The translations under genes were made by a program, and so were the position numbers. From a virus, in IMG/VR virus record IMGVR_UViG_3300044695_001718, positions 1 through 23,253 of that record: 23,253 nucleotides of DNA, one strand, 5' to 3'. Below the pieces are notes generated by a model that was given only the letters and a program-made list of their open reading frames with translations, ran no database searches and was not told where the DNA came from. Below are positions 4,658 through 23,227 of this stretch, one piece after another. Every line of letters starts with the position of its first letter. Position 1 is the first letter of the stretch.

Positions 4658-7600
4658 ATGGGAAGTTTAAGTAATTTATATATTTCACAGAGTTTTCAAT
4701 CTCTAATAAAATTAGCGAGTGATACTGGCGCAAGTGGAACATCTACACAATTGCAAGATGGTTTAGGAACAAACATTGGCGTATATGTAAATACCAATGG
4801 AGAAGTTAGTGCATCTTCTTTTAGCGGTAGTGTAACTGGTATCGGTAATGTAAGTGCATTTAGTTCATCAGTTAATAGTAGAATATTAGCTGCAGAGAAT
4901 ACAGGATTTGTAACTACTGCATCATTTAATTCATATACACAATCAACAAATACATTTACTGCGAGTATATCAACATCAGTAGGTTTATTACAAACGTTTA
5001 GCGGTAGTGAATATAAGAGTGATAGTTCAAGTTTTGATAGTAGATTAGATGCAATAGATGTAAGTGGATATGTTTCAACCGGTTCTTTTAACGCATACAC
5101 TGCATCACAAGATTTTAAGAATACTACATTTGCAACTACATCATCAGTAAATAGTTTAAGTGCAAGTATATTCTCAACAGATGCAACACAGAGTTCTTTA
5201 ATCAATGGTAAGTTAGATACTTCATCATTTACTACATTCTCTACATCAGTAGATAGTAGATTAGATTTATTAGAATTATCTGGCAGTGGATTTGCAACAA
5301 CAGCAAGTGTTAACGCATTATCAGCATCTATATTTCAAACAGATGCAACTCAAAGTTCTCAAATAAATGGTAAGTTAGATACTTCATCATTTAATGCATA
5401 TACTGCATCAGTAACCGAAAGTGTAGTAACTGCGGTAGTAACAAATAATGGTTCTAATTATTATATAATAGATGGTGTAAATCAACCTAAATTATCTTTC
5501 GTACCTGGTCCAAAATATAGATTTCACTTATCAGGTATTGCCGGTAATCATCCATTTAAGTTTTCAACAACAGAGAATGGTCCAACCGAATACACAACAG
5601 GTGTAACGAGTGGCTCAAACTTTATACAAATAGAAGTAGGATACAATACAACTACACCTTTATATTATTATTGCACAAACCATAATGGGATGGGTAATCA
5701 AATAAATGTATTAGAAATTGCAAGCTTAGCAACAACCGCAAGTCTTAACACATTATCTTCAAGTATATATCAAACAGATAGTACACAAAGTAATAACATA
5801 GCGAGTAATAGTTCATCAATAGGATTATTACAAACGTTTAGTGGGTCTCAATATAAAAATGATAGTTCATCATTTGATAGTAGAATATTAGCAATCACTG
5901 GAAGTACAATAAACACCGGAAGTTTCGCAACAACGGGTAGTAATACTTTTGTTGGTAATCAAACAATAACGGGTGATATTACTGCAAGTGGAAACATAAG
6001 TTCTTCAACAATTAGTGGTATAGGTAATGTAACCCTATTTAGTTCTTCAGTAGATAGTAGATTATTAGCAGCGGGTGGCCAATCACAAATACAAGACGAA
6101 GGAACGATATTAGGAAATGTAACTTCATTTAATTTTAATGGAGCGGGTGTAACTGCAACAGTAAGTAGTGGAACAGCATCAGTAACAATACCAGGCGGTG
6201 GTGGAAGTATATATACCGGAAGTTTTGCAACAACAGGTAGTAACTCATTCTTAGGAACACAAACACTTTTACAAACAGGAAGTTGGGGTGGTGTATTATT
6301 AAACGTACAATCAGGCTCAATTAAATTTAACGGACAAGTAGCGGATAGTGGATTTAGTGGAACAGGTAGTATATTTTTAACTCCTGTAAATTTACCACAT
6401 GGTTCTACTAAAGTTGTATTCCAAACAGAATATCAAAGCGGTAGTACAAATCCTAATGGAAATGATTATATTTTAGGTATAGGAAGACAAGGTGATACAT
6501 ATAGTAAGACAGTAGATTTAGGTACAGATTCAACATTAGATGTAAGTAGAGCAAACTTAGTAGGATTTAATTTCACTACAACTGCATCATTTGATGTATT
6601 TAGTGGGTCTCAATACAAAAATGATAGTTCTTCTTTTGATAGTAGAATAAGTTCAGGAGCAATTACCGGTAGTTCTATTATAACTGCAAGTGTATCTCAA
6701 AGTACAATTACATTCACAAAGGGTAATGGTACTCAATTTAGTATAACGATAGCAGATGTGAGTGGAAGTACATTTGATACAAGTTCATTAGTTAGTACTT
6801 CATCATTTAACGCATATACACAAAGTACAAATACATTCACAGCAAGTATATCAACATCAGTAGGATTATTACAAACATTCTCTGGCTCTGAATATAAAGG
6901 GGATAGTTCTTCTTTCAATAGTAGAATAATAACTGCAACAATTAACACTTCATCATTCGCAACAACGGGTAGTAATACCTTTGTAGGTTCTCAATGGTTT
7001 AGTGATGCAGCAGATACAAACTCTTATTCTGCATTATCAGAGTGGTCAGGTAGTTTAATACTAAGTGCAAAAGGATATTATACGGCTTCATTCCCGCAAT
7101 TAACTTCTTCATTAGCAGCGGCAGCAGGAACAGGATTTGTTAACCTTTTATTTAAGGGTGATAGTACAGCAGGAAATACAATATTATCCGGAAGTAGTAA
7201 CATATTAGGAAATCCAGTAGCACCAACTGCAACATTTTATAGACAAGTAGGTAATGGTAACTTAGCATTATTAGGAACATTACCACAAGTAAGTGCTTCT
7301 ATGTTATTTCCAATTACAATGAATGGTAACGTTATAAATGGAACAGGAAATCCAATTACTCTGAGAGGACCGGTAAGTTCTTCTGGATGGACTATCAATG
7401 CTAATAATATACAAGGAACATTAAATTTAGGTTCTAGTACCGCATTGCACGCAGAAAAGTTAGTAAGTGCAGTATCATTAACGGTTAATAATATTCCAGG
7501 TACATTAAGTATTATTGCAAATCAAAGTACAATAACAGGTTCTACAACTATTCTGGGTAATACAATAGCAGGAGGCGTAACATTAAACTTAAGTTCATCT

Positions 7601-11770: not shown

Positions 11771-13776
11771 TGGGAGTTATATCAACACAAGCGTTTACTT
11801 TTCGATTAGTAGCAAATGGAACTCAGTTAGACCTTTTTGAAGATGAAGATATTAAATTATCAAATAATGTAACAGGCCTTTTTGATATTGGACAATTACC
11901 ATCAGATTTCACTCGTCAGATAACCCTACCTGGAACGAAGACAAACAACGCATTTTTCGAACATGTTTACGATATAAGTATTGACTCACCTTTCTTATTT
12001 GCAACGAATATAAAGGTGCCAGCATACTTTGATTTTGATTCTATATATCTTTCACAAGGATACTTACAATTAAATAAGGTAAATGTATTAGCAAATAAAT
12101 TTATTGATTCATATGAGGTAACAATTTTTGGAACTCTATCATCATTTGGTAGAGAAATTAATAGATTATATCTAACAGATTTAACAACATTATCCCAATT
12201 CAATCATACTTCATCATATACTAATATTTCAGCAAGTTGGAATGGTGATTTATTTAGCGGTAGTATAGTTTATCCATTAGCAGATTATGGTAGTGGGTAT
12301 CAATATACATCAGGTCAATTTAACCAATTTGGTATTGATGATGTTCAGGGTGCATTAACTGTTCAAAATTTTAAACCTGCAATTAGAGTAAAGGAAGTAT
12401 GGGATGCAGTATTTGAAGAAACAGGTTATACATATACTTCTAATTTCTTTACACAAAGTTGGTTAGATGATGTATATATGGTTTGTAATAATGCATTAAA
12501 ATATCCTGAATATAGTGGAGTTGATTTAGAAGGATATGGTAAAATAAAAATAGGTGCGATTAGTGGAAGTGGAATGACAGATATAACATTAGCATCGGGT
12601 AGTTGGACAACTTTACCTTGGTATAATACATTATCTGATGTACAAAACTTTTATGAAAATGGTGCATATAGAGTTGAGAAACCAACTAATTTAAAAGGAA
12701 GATTAAATATTAATATTAATGTAAGTTCTTCTGCAAATAATATGCCAGGCACATTCTCAGCAAATGGAACTTGGCAATTAAGAATGTTAGAGACAGGTAG
12801 TTCAACTCCTTATTCAACGCAAGCACTTCAATCGTATATAATTTTCTTTACTGAATTACAAGAAAGTAGAAATGGTAGTATTAATACAACATATCAATTA
12901 GAAACTGAGTTTAACTTAAATAGTATACCGGTTGGTAATTATTATTTTCAAATTCGTCAATCACCTAATTCTGCAACTCCACCTTTGCCAGTGGTTACAT
13001 TAGACCCTGATGGAACAACAAAATCATTTTTAGAAATTACACAAGTTAATTCAGCGGCAGATGGTAGAGTAATAGATATACCTTCTAATATGCCTTACGG
13101 AACTCAAGGTATTAAATTAATTGATTTTATAGTAGGTATTCAAAAGCAGTTTAATTTAGTAATGTATCCTGATAAAACTAAACCAAATCAATTTATAGTT
13201 GAATCATTTAATGATTGGTATTATAGAGGGGAAGTAAAAGATTTTAATAAATACATTAATTTAGATGAAATTATAGAAGTAATTCCAGCAAATAACTTAG
13301 CAGTAAATAAATTAAATTTTGGTGATACATTAGACCAGGATTATATTTCACAACAATTTGCAAAAGGTGCAAATAGAGAATATGGTAAACAATACTATAC
13401 AGATACTAGTAATTTTTATTCACAAGGAACATATGAAGTTAAAACAACATTTGCAAGTTCTCCTTTAATTAGAATAGACGGAACAGGATTGAGTGGTAGT
13501 GTTGGTGGATTAACTCCAACTATTACACAATACTACGCGGGTGTATATACATTTACAACTGCATCTGATTCTTTTTCAGTATGTACTAGTGTAACTCAAA
13601 TATTTATGTACACAGCAGATGGTATGATTTCACCAGGACAAATTGCATATACTGACCAATATGGAGCTAACCCTATTACTGGATACAAATACTTTACATA
13701 TGGTGGCGGTAATGAAATTTATCAAATTAATCAATTCACCGGTGAAATAGGATATGGAACAGGAGATTTCTGTTAA
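11770..13776 (+). CDS. Putative tail tip/baseplate hub protein, large part
   Basis: A 668-residue protein just upstream of the tape measure region. It starts with TQAFTFRLVANGTQLDLFEDEDI and FTRQITLPGTKTNNAFFEHVYD (pieces of about residues 5-70), a module that I associate with large tail-associated proteins of Bacteroidetes phages. The middle has fibre-like Ser/Gly-rich strands. Around 450-490 is GIKLIDFIVGIQKQFNLVM then YPDKTKPNQFIVESFNDWY, and 495-520 DFNKYINLDEIIEVIP, resembling hub proteins in which a helix-strand unit repeats a tail-tube-like fold. The next gene (13788-14309) looks like the missing C-terminal part of the same protein type, so this may be one half of a split hub. No lysozyme or peptidase motif seen. 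Confidence 0.6.
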   Translation: MGVISTQAFTFRLVANGTQLDLFEDEDIKLSNNVTGLFDIGQLPSDFTRQITLPGTKTNNAFFEHVYDISIDSPFLFATNIKVPAYFDFDSIYLSQGYLQLNKVNVLANKFIDSYEVTIFGTLSSFGREINRLYLTDLTTLSQFNHTSSYTNISASWNGDLFSGSIVYPLADYGSGYQYTSGQFNQFGIDDVQGALTVQNFKPAIRVKEVWDAVFEETGYTYTSNFFTQSWLDDVYMVCNNALKYPEYSGVDLEGYGKIKIGAISGSGMTDITLASGSWTTLPWYNTLSDVQNFYENGAYRVEKPTNLKGRLNININVSSSANNMPGTFSANGTWQLRMLETGSSTPYSTQALQSYIIFFTELQESRNGSINTTYQLETEFNLNSIPVGNYYFQIRQSPNSATPPLPVVTLDPDGTTKSFLEITQVNSAADGRVIDIPSNMPYGTQGIKLIDFIVGIQKQFNLVMYPDKTKPNQFIVESFNDWYYRGEVKDFNKYINLDEIIEVIPANNLAVNKLNFGDTLDQDYISQQFAKGANREYGKQYYTDTSNFYSQGTYEVKTTFASSPLIRIDGTGLSGSVGGLTPTITQYYAGVYTFTTASDSFSVCTSVTQIFMYTADGMISPGQIAYTDQYGANPITGYKYFTYGGGNEIYQINQFTGEIGYGTGDFC

Positions 13777-20092: not shown

Positions 20093-20117
20093 AAGGGGAA
20101 TTAATTTTCCCCTTTTT
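20093..20117 (+). terminator. Intrinsic terminator after the 61-residue gene
   Basis: AAGGGGAA (20093-20100) pairs perfectly with TTCCCCTT (20107-20114) around TTAATT, and the T run extends to 20117. It lies three bases after the stop codon. Its partial efficiency would set the ratio between the small gene and the helicase, as no good promoter is seen between it and the next start. Confidence 0.8.
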
Positions 20118-20282: not shown

Positions 20283-22493
20283 ATGAGTAATTTAAAATTA
20301 AGTTATCAAAATATTATTGATAAAACAGGAATTGAAGATAGAACATATCAAAGAGATTTTTTAACAAATCCAATATATCAAATACCAAATAAACCAATTG
20401 TATTAGGTGCTGGAACATCATCTGGTAAAACTATTATGGCGATTCTTAAATTAATTATGTTCTATAAAAATAGAAATAATAAAAATAAACAATCTTTAGT
20501 AATTCCTGCGTTTCATGAAATTTTAAGAGATAATTTTATGGAACAATTAAATGAAATTGAAAAAATGTATGGTAAATTACCGTTTAGTTATATTGAAATA
20601 AAAGGAAAAAATACTAACGTTAAAATTAAAGAAGCATTAAAAATTGGTATAAATGTAATTATTTGTTTACCACAAACAACTTTTAATAATTCTTTATTAT
20701 TTAAAAATAAAATTGAATGGTTTTATTTTGATGAAGCACATTATTTTTATTTGAACACAATGTGTCAGAAAATGTTAAAACAAATTAAACCAAAATTTCA
20801 GTTATTAATGACAGGTTCGGTTTCAAAATATAATTCAATGCGTAATGATTATTTGATTAAATATGTTTGTGTTAATGAATTACATAAATTAGGATTAGTT
20901 TCAAACCCAAAAATTGAATTAATTCAATCATCATATGATTTAAAAAATACAGATTATCGTTCAGTTTGGGGTAGTTTAAAACAAAGTAAAACTTCAAATA
21001 GTATAAAAAATACTGAAGCATTATATTCAGTTGCAAAAGAAATGGTTTTAACTTTAAAAAATAAATTTCCAAATTTAATAACTAACAAATATTATGGAAA
21101 AAGAGCAGTTAGAATATTTGGAGACATTGATAAAACTATTATGATATGTAATAGTATTCCACAAGCTGAATGCTTTTATCATATTTTATACCCTGAATTA
21201 AAAGGTAAAGTATTAATTTCTCATAGTGAAACAGATAGAGAAGATTGGGATAACTTTAATAAATTTAAAACAGATGATACTAAATTATTAATTGTAGTTA
21301 ATCAAGGTAGAATTGGGTTTTCAATGAAAGAATTATTTAATATTGTTGATTTTTCAATGAGTAAAGATTTTGAAATTATTCAACAAATGTTTGGTAGATT
21401 ATTAAGGGTATCAGAAATTAATCCTACTAAACAAAAAATATATTATAAAGTATCTACTACGGATTTAGCTAAATGGTATGAATATGTAATGAGATGCGTG
21501 ATGTGTTTAATGCATATTGATTGGTATTCAACATATAAAGGTGATAAAAATCAGTTTAAGTTTCCAAGAATTGTTAAACAAAGACAACAAACTAATAATT
21601 TAAAAAAACCAACAAATAAATCTAAAGCAAATAATTTTAAAATTTCAGATGAATTTCCATTAGATTTAAATTATGTTAATTATGTTGAACAAAATATGCA
21701 ATCAGAATTTGCTACTTATGCATGGTGGGATTTAAAAGATGCATTAAATGAATTATATAATAGAGAATATATTTCATTTGAAGAAGCAAGAAATATTGTT
21801 TGGAGCTTTAATTTAAAAAACCAAAATGATTGGAGAGAATTTTCAAAAACTATTAGAAAAGAATATGGTATTCCATCTCAACCTGAAATTCATTATTCTA
21901 AAGAATGGTTATCATTTCAAGATTGGATTGGAACTAATAAAGGTTCTAATGGTAAACAATTTTTATCATTTGAAGATGCAAAAAAATATGTAAAAAAATT
22001 AAAATTTAAATCTAGAAATGATTGGAGTAATTGGAAAACAAATAGACCATCAAATATTCCTTCTACACCTAGAAATGCATATAAAGATGAATGGAAAGGT
22101 TGGGGAGATTTTTTAGGAACTGGTACAATGGCTCCACAAAATAAAAATATTATGACATTAGAACAGGCTAAAAAATGGGTTAAATCTAAAAAAGTAAAAA
22201 CTTCTACTGAATTTAATAATCTATGGAAAGATGCATTATTACCTGATAATATGCCAAAGGCTGGTGCTGGATATTACAAAGTAAGTTGGCCTAGTTTTTT
22301 ACAAAATGGTAATGATAAAGTAGATTTTTTATCATTTACAAAAGCTAGAAAATATGTAAGAACATTATCATTAAGTTCACAAAAAGAATGGAATAAATAT
22401 TCTAAAACTGAAAGGCCTAATAATATACCAAGTAATCCAAAAAATGTTTACAAAAATGAATGGATAGGATTTGATAATTGGTTAGGTAAATAA
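20283..22493 (+). CDS. SF2 helicase with four C-terminal integrase-like repeats
   Basis: A 736-residue protein. The first ~440 residues are a superfamily 2 helicase/translocase core: Walker A GAGTSSGKT (42-50, K49), DEAH box (D150-H153), motif III LLMTGS, motif V VVNQGRIGFS, motif VI QQMFGRLLR (367-375, Arg fingers R372/R375). Residues about 494-557, 558-620, 621-679 and 680-736 are four repeats of a ~60-residue unit: (F/Y)LSFEDAKKYV, then W-x-x-(Y/W/F)-x-K, then IPSxPxxxYKxEWxG(F/W)xD(W/F)(L/I)G; the third is most divergent. Such units are known as phage-integrase-like SAM repeats in aquatic viruses and algae, probably DNA-binding. Helicase motor joined to DNA-binding repeats suggests a replication or recombination role. 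By eye the gene is clearly more AT-rich than the virion genes (sampled lines near 17-22% GC against 33-37%), which hints at separate acquisition. Confidence 0.85.
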   Translation: MSNLKLSYQNIIDKTGIEDRTYQRDFLTNPIYQIPNKPIVLGAGTSSGKTIMAILKLIMFYKNRNNKNKQSLVIPAFHEILRDNFMEQLNEIEKMYGKLPFSYIEIKGKNTNVKIKEALKIGINVIICLPQTTFNNSLLFKNKIEWFYFDEAHYFYLNTMCQKMLKQIKPKFQLLMTGSVSKYNSMRNDYLIKYVCVNELHKLGLVSNPKIELIQSSYDLKNTDYRSVWGSLKQSKTSNSIKNTEALYSVAKEMVLTLKNKFPNLITNKYYGKRAVRIFGDIDKTIMICNSIPQAECFYHILYPELKGKVLISHSETDREDWDNFNKFKTDDTKLLIVVNQGRIGFSMKELFNIVDFSMSKDFEIIQQMFGRLLRVSEINPTKQKIYYKVSTTDLAKWYEYVMRCVMCLMHIDWYSTYKGDKNQFKFPRIVKQRQQTNNLKKPTNKSKANNFKISDEFPLDLNYVNYVEQNMQSEFATYAWWDLKDALNELYNREYISFEEARNIVWSFNLKNQNDWREFSKTIRKEYGIPSQPEIHYSKEWLSFQDWIGTNKGSNGKQFLSFEDAKKYVKKLKFKSRNDWSNWKTNRPSNIPSTPRNAYKDEWKGWGDFLGTGTMAPQNKNIMTLEQAKKWVKSKKVKTSTEFNNLWKDALLPDNMPKAGAGYYKVSWPSFLQNGNDKVDFLSFTKARKYVRTLSLSSQKEWNKYSKTERPNNIPSNPKNVYKNEWIGFDNWLGK

Positions 22494-22505: not shown

Positions 22506-22538
22506 ATTTGGCTGATACTTATATTTGTTGTATCTTTA
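22506..22538 (+). promoter_or_regulatory. Candidate promoter for the DUF1376 gene
   Basis: ATTTGG at 22506-22511, a 19-base spacer, and TATCTTTA at 22531-22538 (seven of eight to TAnnTTTG including free positions). An overlapping TATATTTG at 22520-22527 is a second -7-like match without an upstream partner at the right distance. It starts 13 bases after the helicase stop and 42 bases before the next ATG. Confidence 0.65.
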
Positions 22539-22579: not shown

Positions 22580-23053
22580 ATGGCAAAAGACCCAGCAGTA
22601 TTGTTCTATACATCAGATTTTCTGAGTGGAACACTAACAATGAATTACGAACAGAAAGGTAAATATATTACTTTACTGTGTTACCAACATCAGCAAGGAT
22701 TTTTATTAGAAGAAGATTTCAAAGCAATTTTAGATGGAACTGATAGTAAGGTATTCAATAAGTTTCAAAAACTAGATGATGGAAAGTATTACAATTTAAA
22801 ACTGAAAGTTGAAAGTGAAAGGAGAAAATCTTATACTGAAAGTAGAAGAAACAATAGAACAAAGAAAGATAATGTAGATATGATTAACTTATCTAAATCA
22901 TATGTTAATCGTATGGAAACTGTAACTGGAACTGTAACTGTAACTGATACTTCTATTAATAATACTTCTAGTAATACTGTATATAGTATAGGGGATAAAA
23001 TGAAAATTAAACCATCGGATAAAGAAATAAATGAGTTAGATAATTTGGTATAG
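22580..23053 (+). CDS. DUF1376-type phage replication protein
   Basis: A 157-residue protein. Residues 1-50 (AKDPAVLFYTSDFLSGTLTM, then NYEQKGKYITLLCYQHQQGF) and 66-91 (DDGKYYNLKLKVESERRKSY, ESRRNNR) follow the DUF1376 pattern: D-P-A-x-x-F-Y-x-x-D-F-L-S-G, a winged-helix-like domain, then YYNxxLxxExxxRKxYxESRRNNR. DUF1376 domains begin phage replisome-organiser proteins that bind the origin and recruit helicase loading. Here the part after the basic region is short (ends KPSDKEINELDNLV), so any C-terminal loader-interaction domain is reduced. A hexamer repeat codes for TVTGTVTVTDT in the linker. The gene has its own promoter candidate and lies right after the helicase. Confidence 0.8.
   Translation: MAKDPAVLFYTSDFLSGTLTMNYEQKGKYITLLCYQHQQGFLLEEDFKAILDGTDSKVFNKFQKLDDGKYYNLKLKVESERRKSYTESRRNNRTKKDNVDMINLSKSYVNRMETVTGTVTVTDTSINNTSSNTVYSIGDKMKIKPSDKEINELDNLV
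22919..22951 (+). repeat. Hexanucleotide repeat in replication protein linker
   Basis: Five to six units of ACTG(T/G/A)(A/T) in frame, coding alternating Thr and Val/Gly/Asp. A tract like this is prone to slipped-strand change in whole codons pairs, so linker length may vary among relatives without breaking the frame. Confidence 0.8.
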
Positions 23054-23075
23054 TAGAAAAAATAAATTATATTTG
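23043..23075 (+). promoter_or_regulatory. Candidate promoter for the non-coding unit
   Basis: ATTTGG (23043-23048), 19 bases, TATATTTG (23068-23075), a full match to TAnnTTTG and the best of the promoter candidates. The upstream box lies within the last codons of the replication gene. Transcription should begin about 23080-23082. Confidence 0.7.
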
Positions 23076-23081
23076 TTATAT

Positions 23082-23185
23082 AAATGTTCAGTTCTTTAAT
23101 GCCATTTAGTCTGAACATCCTTAACTAATATAGAGTGGTCAAATATTACACTCTCTCCCTCACTATTCTTAGTGGGGGTTTTTTT
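23082..23185 (+). ncRNA. Putative small structured RNA with own promoter and terminator
   Basis: From the start predicted by the promoter at 23043-23075 to the T run there are about 104 bases with no credible gene. Stem 1: ATGTTCAG (23084-23091) with CTGAACAT (23111-23118), eight perfect pairs, 19-base loop. Stem 2: AGAGTG (23132-23137) with CACTCT (23149-23154), six pairs, 11-base loop. Stem 3 is the terminator at 23157-23178. A 14-codon frame starts at 23084 inside stem 1, so a leader peptide is an alternative. The RNA family is not one I know (not tRNA, 6S or a named riboswitch). Another promoter follows 10 bases after the T run, which argues that this unit is complete in itself and not just a leader. 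Confidence 0.55.
23157..23185 (+). terminator. Strong intrinsic terminator of the non-coding unit
   Basis: CCCTCACTA (23157-23165) pairs with TAGTGGGGG (23170-23178), nine pairs with one T-G, around TTCT, followed by seven T (23179-23185). It has the most canonical form in the window. Confidence 0.9.
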
Positions 23186-23194
23186 ATGTAAATT

Positions 23195-23227
23195 ATTTGG
23201 TGGTTTGAGATTTTCTTAGTATATTTA
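23195..23227 (+). promoter_or_regulatory. Candidate promoter reading out of the window
   Basis: ATTTGG (23195-23200), 19 bases, TATATTTA (23220-23227), one base from TAnnTTTG. It begins ten bases after the terminator T run. The A-rich leader after it (ending in ACAAACAAAACAAAT) resembles the leaders before start codons elsewhere in the window, so a gene probably begins just beyond the end. Confidence 0.65.

Follow-up and report, generated by a model that had tools for sequence, protein, structure and literature searches.

A putative phage small RNA whose conserved hairpin loop is complementary to the start codon of an adjacent endonuclease gene

Directly 5' of the late operon of a tailed phage lies a compact unit that we believe, on well-supported comparative grounds, to be a real small-RNA gene, and there is good computational evidence that the conserved loop of its first hairpin complements the start codon of the endonuclease gene next to it. 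Computation established the conserved fold, where it lies, and that the loop matches the start, the last in two different folds. Our preferred reading, to which we lean without holding it firmly, is that the RNA acts in trans by covering the start codon on the endonuclease mRNA. The window analysed here is the whole record, a 23,253-base tailed-phage fragment with portal, capsid-like, tape-measure and protease genes; judging by the promoters, the hosts would be Bacteroidetes, and the closest named terminase relatives (about 36-37%) are those of Bacteroides and Phocaeicola phages.

The unit and its compensatory changes

The promoter, the two hairpins (8 and 6 pairs) and the 9-pair terminator with seven T that were claimed in a preliminary description all lie where it placed them, as does a following promoter ten bases on (TTTG-N20-TATATTTA at 23196), and the longest enclosed frame has, as it said, 14 codons (Table 1). 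Its name for the gene upstream, a replication protein, finds no backing, with zero Pfam or PHROG family matches for ORF 22580-23053. The -33 box of P1 lies inside the last codons of this ORF, which has a promoter-like site of its own at 22507-22537, and the RNA start predicted from P1 is 8 nt before hairpin 1.

Table 1. Elements of the small-RNA unit and its surroundings in the window
Feature	Position	Strand	Remarks
Upstream ORF, 157 aa	22580-23053	+	MAKDPAVLFYT..., starts ATGGCA; no family match
Promoter P1, TTTG-N20-TATATTTG	23044-23075	+	Bacteroidetes -33/-7 type; sole full match in window
Small RNA, ~106-110 nt (predicted)	23076-23185	+	Ends predicted from promoter and terminator; covariance-model search and alignment of 17 members
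Hairpin 1	23084-23118 (23084-23091 with 23111-23118)	+	8-pair stem, 19-nt loop, arms ATGTTCAG/CTGAACAT
Anti-start loop GCCAUUU	23101-23107	+	In hairpin 1; complement of AAAUGGC
Hairpin 2	23132-23154 (23132-23137 with 23149-23154)	+	6-pair stem AGAGTG/CACTCT, loop with conserved AAUANUA
Intrinsic terminator	23157-23185 (hairpin 23157-23178, T run 23179-23185)	+	9 pairs, UUCU loop, 7 U
Promoter P2, TTTG-N20-TATATTTA	23196-23227	+	Late operon; begins ten bases past T run

Elsewhere in the window, 20283-22493 encodes a DEAD-box helicase, in the place of a phage helicase, whose C-terminal part matches integrase repeat units (PF14882), and a terminator-like hairpin at 20093-20114 (AAGGGGAATTAATTTTCCCCTT) has T runs on both strands and is possibly bidirectional. 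A sub-threshold match to the eukaryotic SmY RNA at 12087-12156 (26 bits, gathering 39) lies within a coding region, and we take it as chance.

By itself, the window sequence is suggestive of a structured RNA unit. Full P1-type matches are expected 0.30 times by chance in the window and occur in 27 of 100 shuffles, so the promoter match alone proves little. The fold of 23076-23190 has z = -5.0 (0 of 200 shuffles) and z = -2.5 minus the terminator, and the hairpins folded singly have z = -3.5 (hairpin 1) and -3.1 (hairpin 2). A cmscan of Rfam 15 with E up to 1 returned no family at 23076-23185. What we regard as decisive support for the unit is comparative, namely that 16 other distinct phage sequences have it with compensatory changes.

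Entry to the family came from homologs of the 157-aa ORF, which led to contigs with the unit at the same place but with different stem sequences; pattern scans, a search that used the sigma-like late-operon protein as query and then covariance-model searches of IMG/VR phage contigs supplied further members. There are 17 distinct full members (the window, L122, L069, L116, L112, L119, L114, L113, L148, L142, L120, L131, L111, L005, L130, L127 and L189), matching the model at E 5e-13 to 1e-27 with one copy per contig, and an additional member, L027/L109, is cut by the contig end. Searches of other kinds returned little: blastn of the unit against phage records gave promoter or AT-rich chance matches only (that to Tenacibaculum phage Gundel_1 is promoter-like sequence only), an exact hairpin-1 pattern had zero matches, and a pattern scan of bacterial genome contigs gave one chance-like match, to a SAR86 contig, so that at that strictness the family was not found in sequenced bacterial species.

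In the 17-row alignment, standard pairs fill 97.9% of the pair cells and 18 of the 23 pairs have changed on both sides. Covariation scores 0.723, where shuffled partners give 0.215 ± 0.021 and structures displaced by 1-3 columns no more than 0.10; fitting to the model biases the alignment toward the structure, and it is the displaced control that gives the effect size. Compensatory changes are present in all three stems. Every one of the eight pairs of hairpin 1 has changes on both sides, with 95.3% of cells paired, while three of the six pairs of hairpin 2 have such changes and the remaining three are invariant, with 99% paired. All 17 keep unchanged GCCAUU in the hairpin-1 loop, AAUANUAC in and beside the loop of hairpin 2, and some of the hairpin-2 stem. 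Stems 1 and 3 contain G-U pairs when read on the + strand; on the other strand these would be A-C, which fits the + strand as the RNA strand. For a loop-loop contact between hairpins 1 and 2 (AUUU/AAAU) there is one supporting double change (L130) and one break (L111). P1 is found as TTTG and TATNTTTG at about N20 spacing in 14 of 17 members, the -33 box being absent in L148, L114 and L130.

A peptide gene at 23084-23128 was considered and rejected: the 14-codon frame is broken by a 1-nt deletion in L116 and L119 and is without an ATG in L014 and L148. The preliminary description had proposed a possible new phage small RNA, to be supported by stem covariation and refuted by a conserved peptide frame across these positions without such covariation; the compensatory changes, the unconserved frame, the conserved promoter, terminator and next promoter, and the lack of an Rfam match all bear the proposal out.

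The endonuclease start opposite the loop

After the RNA, the order in the inspected members is endonuclease, two small conserved proteins (MCI, MPI), the sigma-like protein, TerS and TerL, and each of them except L148 has P2 (TTTG-N20-TATATTTA or TATCTTTA) after the terminator. The gene 5' of the RNA is the 157-aa ORF in most members and a different gene in several. The sigma-like protein (183-187 aa, e.g. L063 2575-3138) is conserved, without a Pfam match or a relative in the phage collection. The first downstream gene appears, from its domains, to encode a homing-type endonuclease with a GIY-YIG or HNH domain: it is of HNH_3 type (PF13392) beside the RNA in G003, G005, G007, G008, G009 and G011, has a GIY-YIG Pfam match (PF01541) in G015, and is of GIY type elsewhere by homology to the G015 gene (e.g. 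55%). A division into five unrelated endonuclease families was given up for two superfamilies, the GIY-type groups being distantly alike. With about 150-200 aa, the endonucleases are not the small hydrophobic toxins that go with type I toxin-antitoxin RNAs.

In the window, the endonuclease start ATGGCA would fall at 23254, just beyond the contig end, and was therefore taken from the near-identical contig L109/L027. That contig (1-87) starts inside the hairpin-1 loop and has the 3' arm TCCGACT in place of CTGAACAT (window 23084-23118); strain-level variation at hairpin 1 and the endonuclease start probably broke both assemblies.

The loop sequence GCCAUU is the complement of AAUGGC and stays fixed while the stems around it drift. 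The linked first genes start with ATGGC in 15 of 17 members and with ATGGT, which still pairs via G-U, in the other two, while not one of the 31 similar zinc-finger/GIY genes that lack the RNA begins with ATGGC and 8 of 10 endonuclease genes not adjoining the RNA (in these and related phages, minus L003 and L004) have another start. Pairing of the loop with its own start has a mean of -10.06 kcal/mol, compared with -5.1 ± 0.89 for position-shuffled loops (0 of 500). The complementarity is short, an unbroken Watson-Crick run of 5-9 pairs in the first fold and of only 6 for the predicted target of the window, and this counts against the endonuclease as target. GUGCC loops (L005, L189, L130, L127) stand opposite AUGGCAC starts with 8-9 bp, yet L069 and L112 have the same GUGCC loop letters and AUGGCAA starts. 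Although the endonuclease now starts later in L005 and L189, ATGGCAC is kept there as a four-codon minicistron (MAQL*, ATGGCACAATTATGA; L005 ~2414-2428, L189 ~7205-7219), whose ATGA overlap with the endonuclease start suggests that endonuclease translation may be coupled to the paired start. The start region may have been passed between different endonucleases as a module.

An RNA directed against phage starts in general was considered and rejected: AAATGGC occurs in the phages that carry the RNA about as often as chance predicts (26 observed, 28.8 expected), and ATGGC starts make up 18.6% of their genes, the base rate, compared with 23.9% in phages without it. When 538 distinct gene starts were scanned without bias for hairpin loops complementary to them, 12 matches emerged, nine of them RNA-endonuclease pairs, as against 5.4 on average with swapped targets; this backs the link between loop and start in a supportive but modest way.

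A second fold and the choice of target

More distant endonuclease homologs are preceded, at the same place, by a different RNA, found in L210, L283, L284, L214, L221 and L285 and as opposite-strand copies in L003 and L004. Its parts are a helix A, a bulge with conserved UUAA..AAU, a helix B that begins with AC, and a long-looped terminator; when both strands of 2.36 Mb were scanned for these parts in this order, only the known members and one match without a T run came up. An AAUAC-like motif is common to both folds, in the hairpin-2 loop of the first (window 23138-23150) and in the internal loop before helix B of the second (L210 2283-2408 and relatives), and is perhaps a protein-binding site.

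The anti-start of the second fold sits in the terminator loop, as UUUUGUCAUU or GUCAUU, facing the starts AAUGACAAAA, AAUGACAA and CAAUGACA. The loop UUUUUUGUCAUU is opposite AAUGACAAAA in L210 (10 bp) and AAUGACAA in L283, and a decayed GACAAAA, its ATG lost, in L284; UGUCAUUG is opposite CAAUGACA in L214 (8 bp), GUCAUUGUU opposite AACAAUGAC in L221 (9 bp), and AGUGCCA opposite UGGCACU, of the start AUGGCAC, in L285 (7 bp). Here, then, the loop tracks the start, GUCAUU going with ATGAC and GUGCCA with ATGGCAC. The endonuclease of L285 groups in the tree with those of L214 and L221 (support 84/91), apart from the first-fold clade, so that loop and start changed together there. Own loop-start partners exceed swapped ones in 50,000 permutations (0 of 50,000; 22 members, both folds), with p = 0.008 for the second fold and a weak p = 0.04 for the first, but the members are related and these p-values overstate their independence.

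In L283 the upstream ORF starts ATGGCA, the endonuclease ATGACA, and the loop reads GUCAUU; the loop fits the endonuclease and not the upstream ORF, and thus follows the endonuclease. The upstream ORF ranks second in hybridisation and its ATGGCA start is unchanged with or without a matching loop, and we have rejected it as the main target on these grounds; with its AUGGCA start, it is a possible additional one. Replication, a host gene or the late switch, which had been put forward as what the RNA controls, fit less well than the endonuclease, which the RNA tracks while the upstream gene varies.

In most members, loop and start are on the same strand, 114-168 nt apart. In L003 and L004 it is the opposite strand that carries the second fold, ahead of the upstream ORF; the apical loop is UGCCAUUU, whose complement, AAAUGGCA, is the start of that ORF; the endonuclease starts of these phages fit nearly as well. 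No consensus promoter was recognised for the opposite-strand RNA, which cannot act in cis on either gene and so favours action in trans. Both phages also have an extra hairpin AAAGGT..ACCTTT (loop AGCCAUAUUG in L003) with a terminator, 5' of the 157-aa ORF (L003 3700-3768, L004 2990-3066), a weak match to the first-fold model at 24-27 bits. A cis-antisense RNA would be opposite to its target and overlap it; this one is upstream on the same strand and, in L003 and L004, opposite without overlap.

Proposed action, rival explanations and known systems

From these sequences we infer transcription of the RNA, its pairing and, through that pairing, repression. P1 would transcribe an RNA of about 106 nt that is ended by its own terminator, and the hairpin-1 loop would present GCCAUUU for pairing with the AUGGC start of the P2-transcribed mRNA of the endonuclease, the first late-operon gene. 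Masking of the start codon would then block initiation and so curb translation of the endonuclease, in trans most probably. In Flavobacterium johnsoniae, mRNAs have no Shine-Dalgarno sites, and initiation needs low structure at the start codon and a few upstream bases (PMC6847099). As such hosts initiate without Shine-Dalgarno pairing, masking of the start codon itself would block initiation.

A cis version of this brake, in which transcripts from P1 or reading through from upstream fold the loop onto the start while P2 transcripts escape and are translated late, the terminated RNA being inert, is unlikely, though it deserves to be taken seriously. The unit sits between P1 and P2 much as the inhibitory hairpin of I-TevI sits between an early and a late promoter (PMC2988022), and the same-strand arrangement of loop and start in most members would suit it. 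An inhibitory structure within the endonuclease mRNA is, however, possible in read-through transcripts only, which the strong terminator right behind the loop limits; the strand of the RNA in L003 and L004 speaks against it, and P1 would start the transcript just ahead of hairpin 1, as expected of an RNA in its own right. We consider it distinctly unlikely that the RNA has another target, be it host AUGGC mRNAs or a loop-binding protein, and that the match to its neighbour merely reflects common Met-Ala starts. GCCAUU does complement many such starts (the 18.6% of genes above), and the conserved hairpin 2 with AAUANUAC is left unexplained by start-codon masking, but another target fails to account for the joint shifts of loop and start (GUCAU with AUGAC, GUGCCA with AUGGCAC) or for the strict position before the endonuclease.

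A late-operon leader with a regulated terminator, in the style of the lambda pR' leader (6S RNA, Q) or HK022 put RNA, in which hairpins 1 and 2 modify the polymerase for read-through, is improbable. The unit is directly 5' of the packaging operon and its two hairpins precede a terminator; yet every inspected member except L148 has P2 as a separate promoter for the late operon, the hairpins that the second fold puts at this place are quite unlike those of the first, the RNA of L003 and L004 is divergently oriented, and we see no alternative pairing that would compete with the terminator. That the unit is ordinary intergenic DNA with chance hairpins, operator repeats or a short peptide gene we scarcely credit at all. 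The promoter alone is not significant and the hairpins minus the terminator reach a z of only -2.5, but compensatory stem changes around conserved loops refute this explanation of the RNA fold, and the short frame is broken in L116 and L119 and without its ATG in L014 and L148.

Start-codon masking in trans has several known relatives. T4 homing endonucleases are restrained by hairpins that only transcripts begun at upstream promoters can form and that those of a near late promoter lack (PMC2988022); the order P1-RNA-P2 follows the same logic of upstream inclusion and near exclusion, but with a separate RNA. As proposed here, RNA pairing would mask the start of a phage homing endonuclease, like the T4-type control of I-TevI, I-TevII, I-TevIII, segB and Aeh1 mobE. 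The T4-type hairpin, however, is within the endonuclease mRNA and hides the Shine-Dalgarno site, whereas the RNA described here would be separately promoted and terminated, carries the start-codon complement in a loop, occurs in two folds and is on the opposite strand in two phages.

RNA-OUT of IS10 is a stable stem-loop RNA of a mobile element, and pairing of its loop blocks the translation start of a DNA-cutting enzyme. Our RNA would likewise be a small stem-loop RNA with loop pairing at the start of such an enzyme, but RNA-OUT is antisense over its target with long complementarity, and ours is encoded upstream, in most cases on the same strand, and is complementary over 5-10 nt. With trans-encoded loop-seed sRNAs it shares, in its sequence elements, an own promoter, a seed in a hairpin loop and an intrinsic terminator; it differs in a seed that complements start and second codon and not a Shine-Dalgarno site, in a target that is its neighbour, and in hosts that are presumably Bacteroidetes. 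Lambda 6S RNA and HK022 put are also short terminated hairpin RNAs before a late operon, without the conserved second promoter and the loop complementary to the first gene's start that are found here.

Translation-blocking RNAs that pair by a loop, and RNA control of homing endonucleases, are already known; what appears to be new is a separately transcribed RNA, in two unrelated folds, with a loop that follows its neighbour's start codon. To our knowledge, small RNAs described from Bacteroidetes phages are few, and the control of free-standing homing endonucleases is mostly unexplained. We see about as much reason to accept as to doubt that these are an undescribed class of "anti-start RNAs", with at least two unrelated folds and a loop co-evolving with the start and second codon of the endonuclease, which would silence it in trans in hosts that do not rely on Shine-Dalgarno pairing. 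Where hosts make no use of Shine-Dalgarno sites, masking of the AUG itself by an RNA would be the natural equivalent of the masking of Shine-Dalgarno sites by small RNAs elsewhere.
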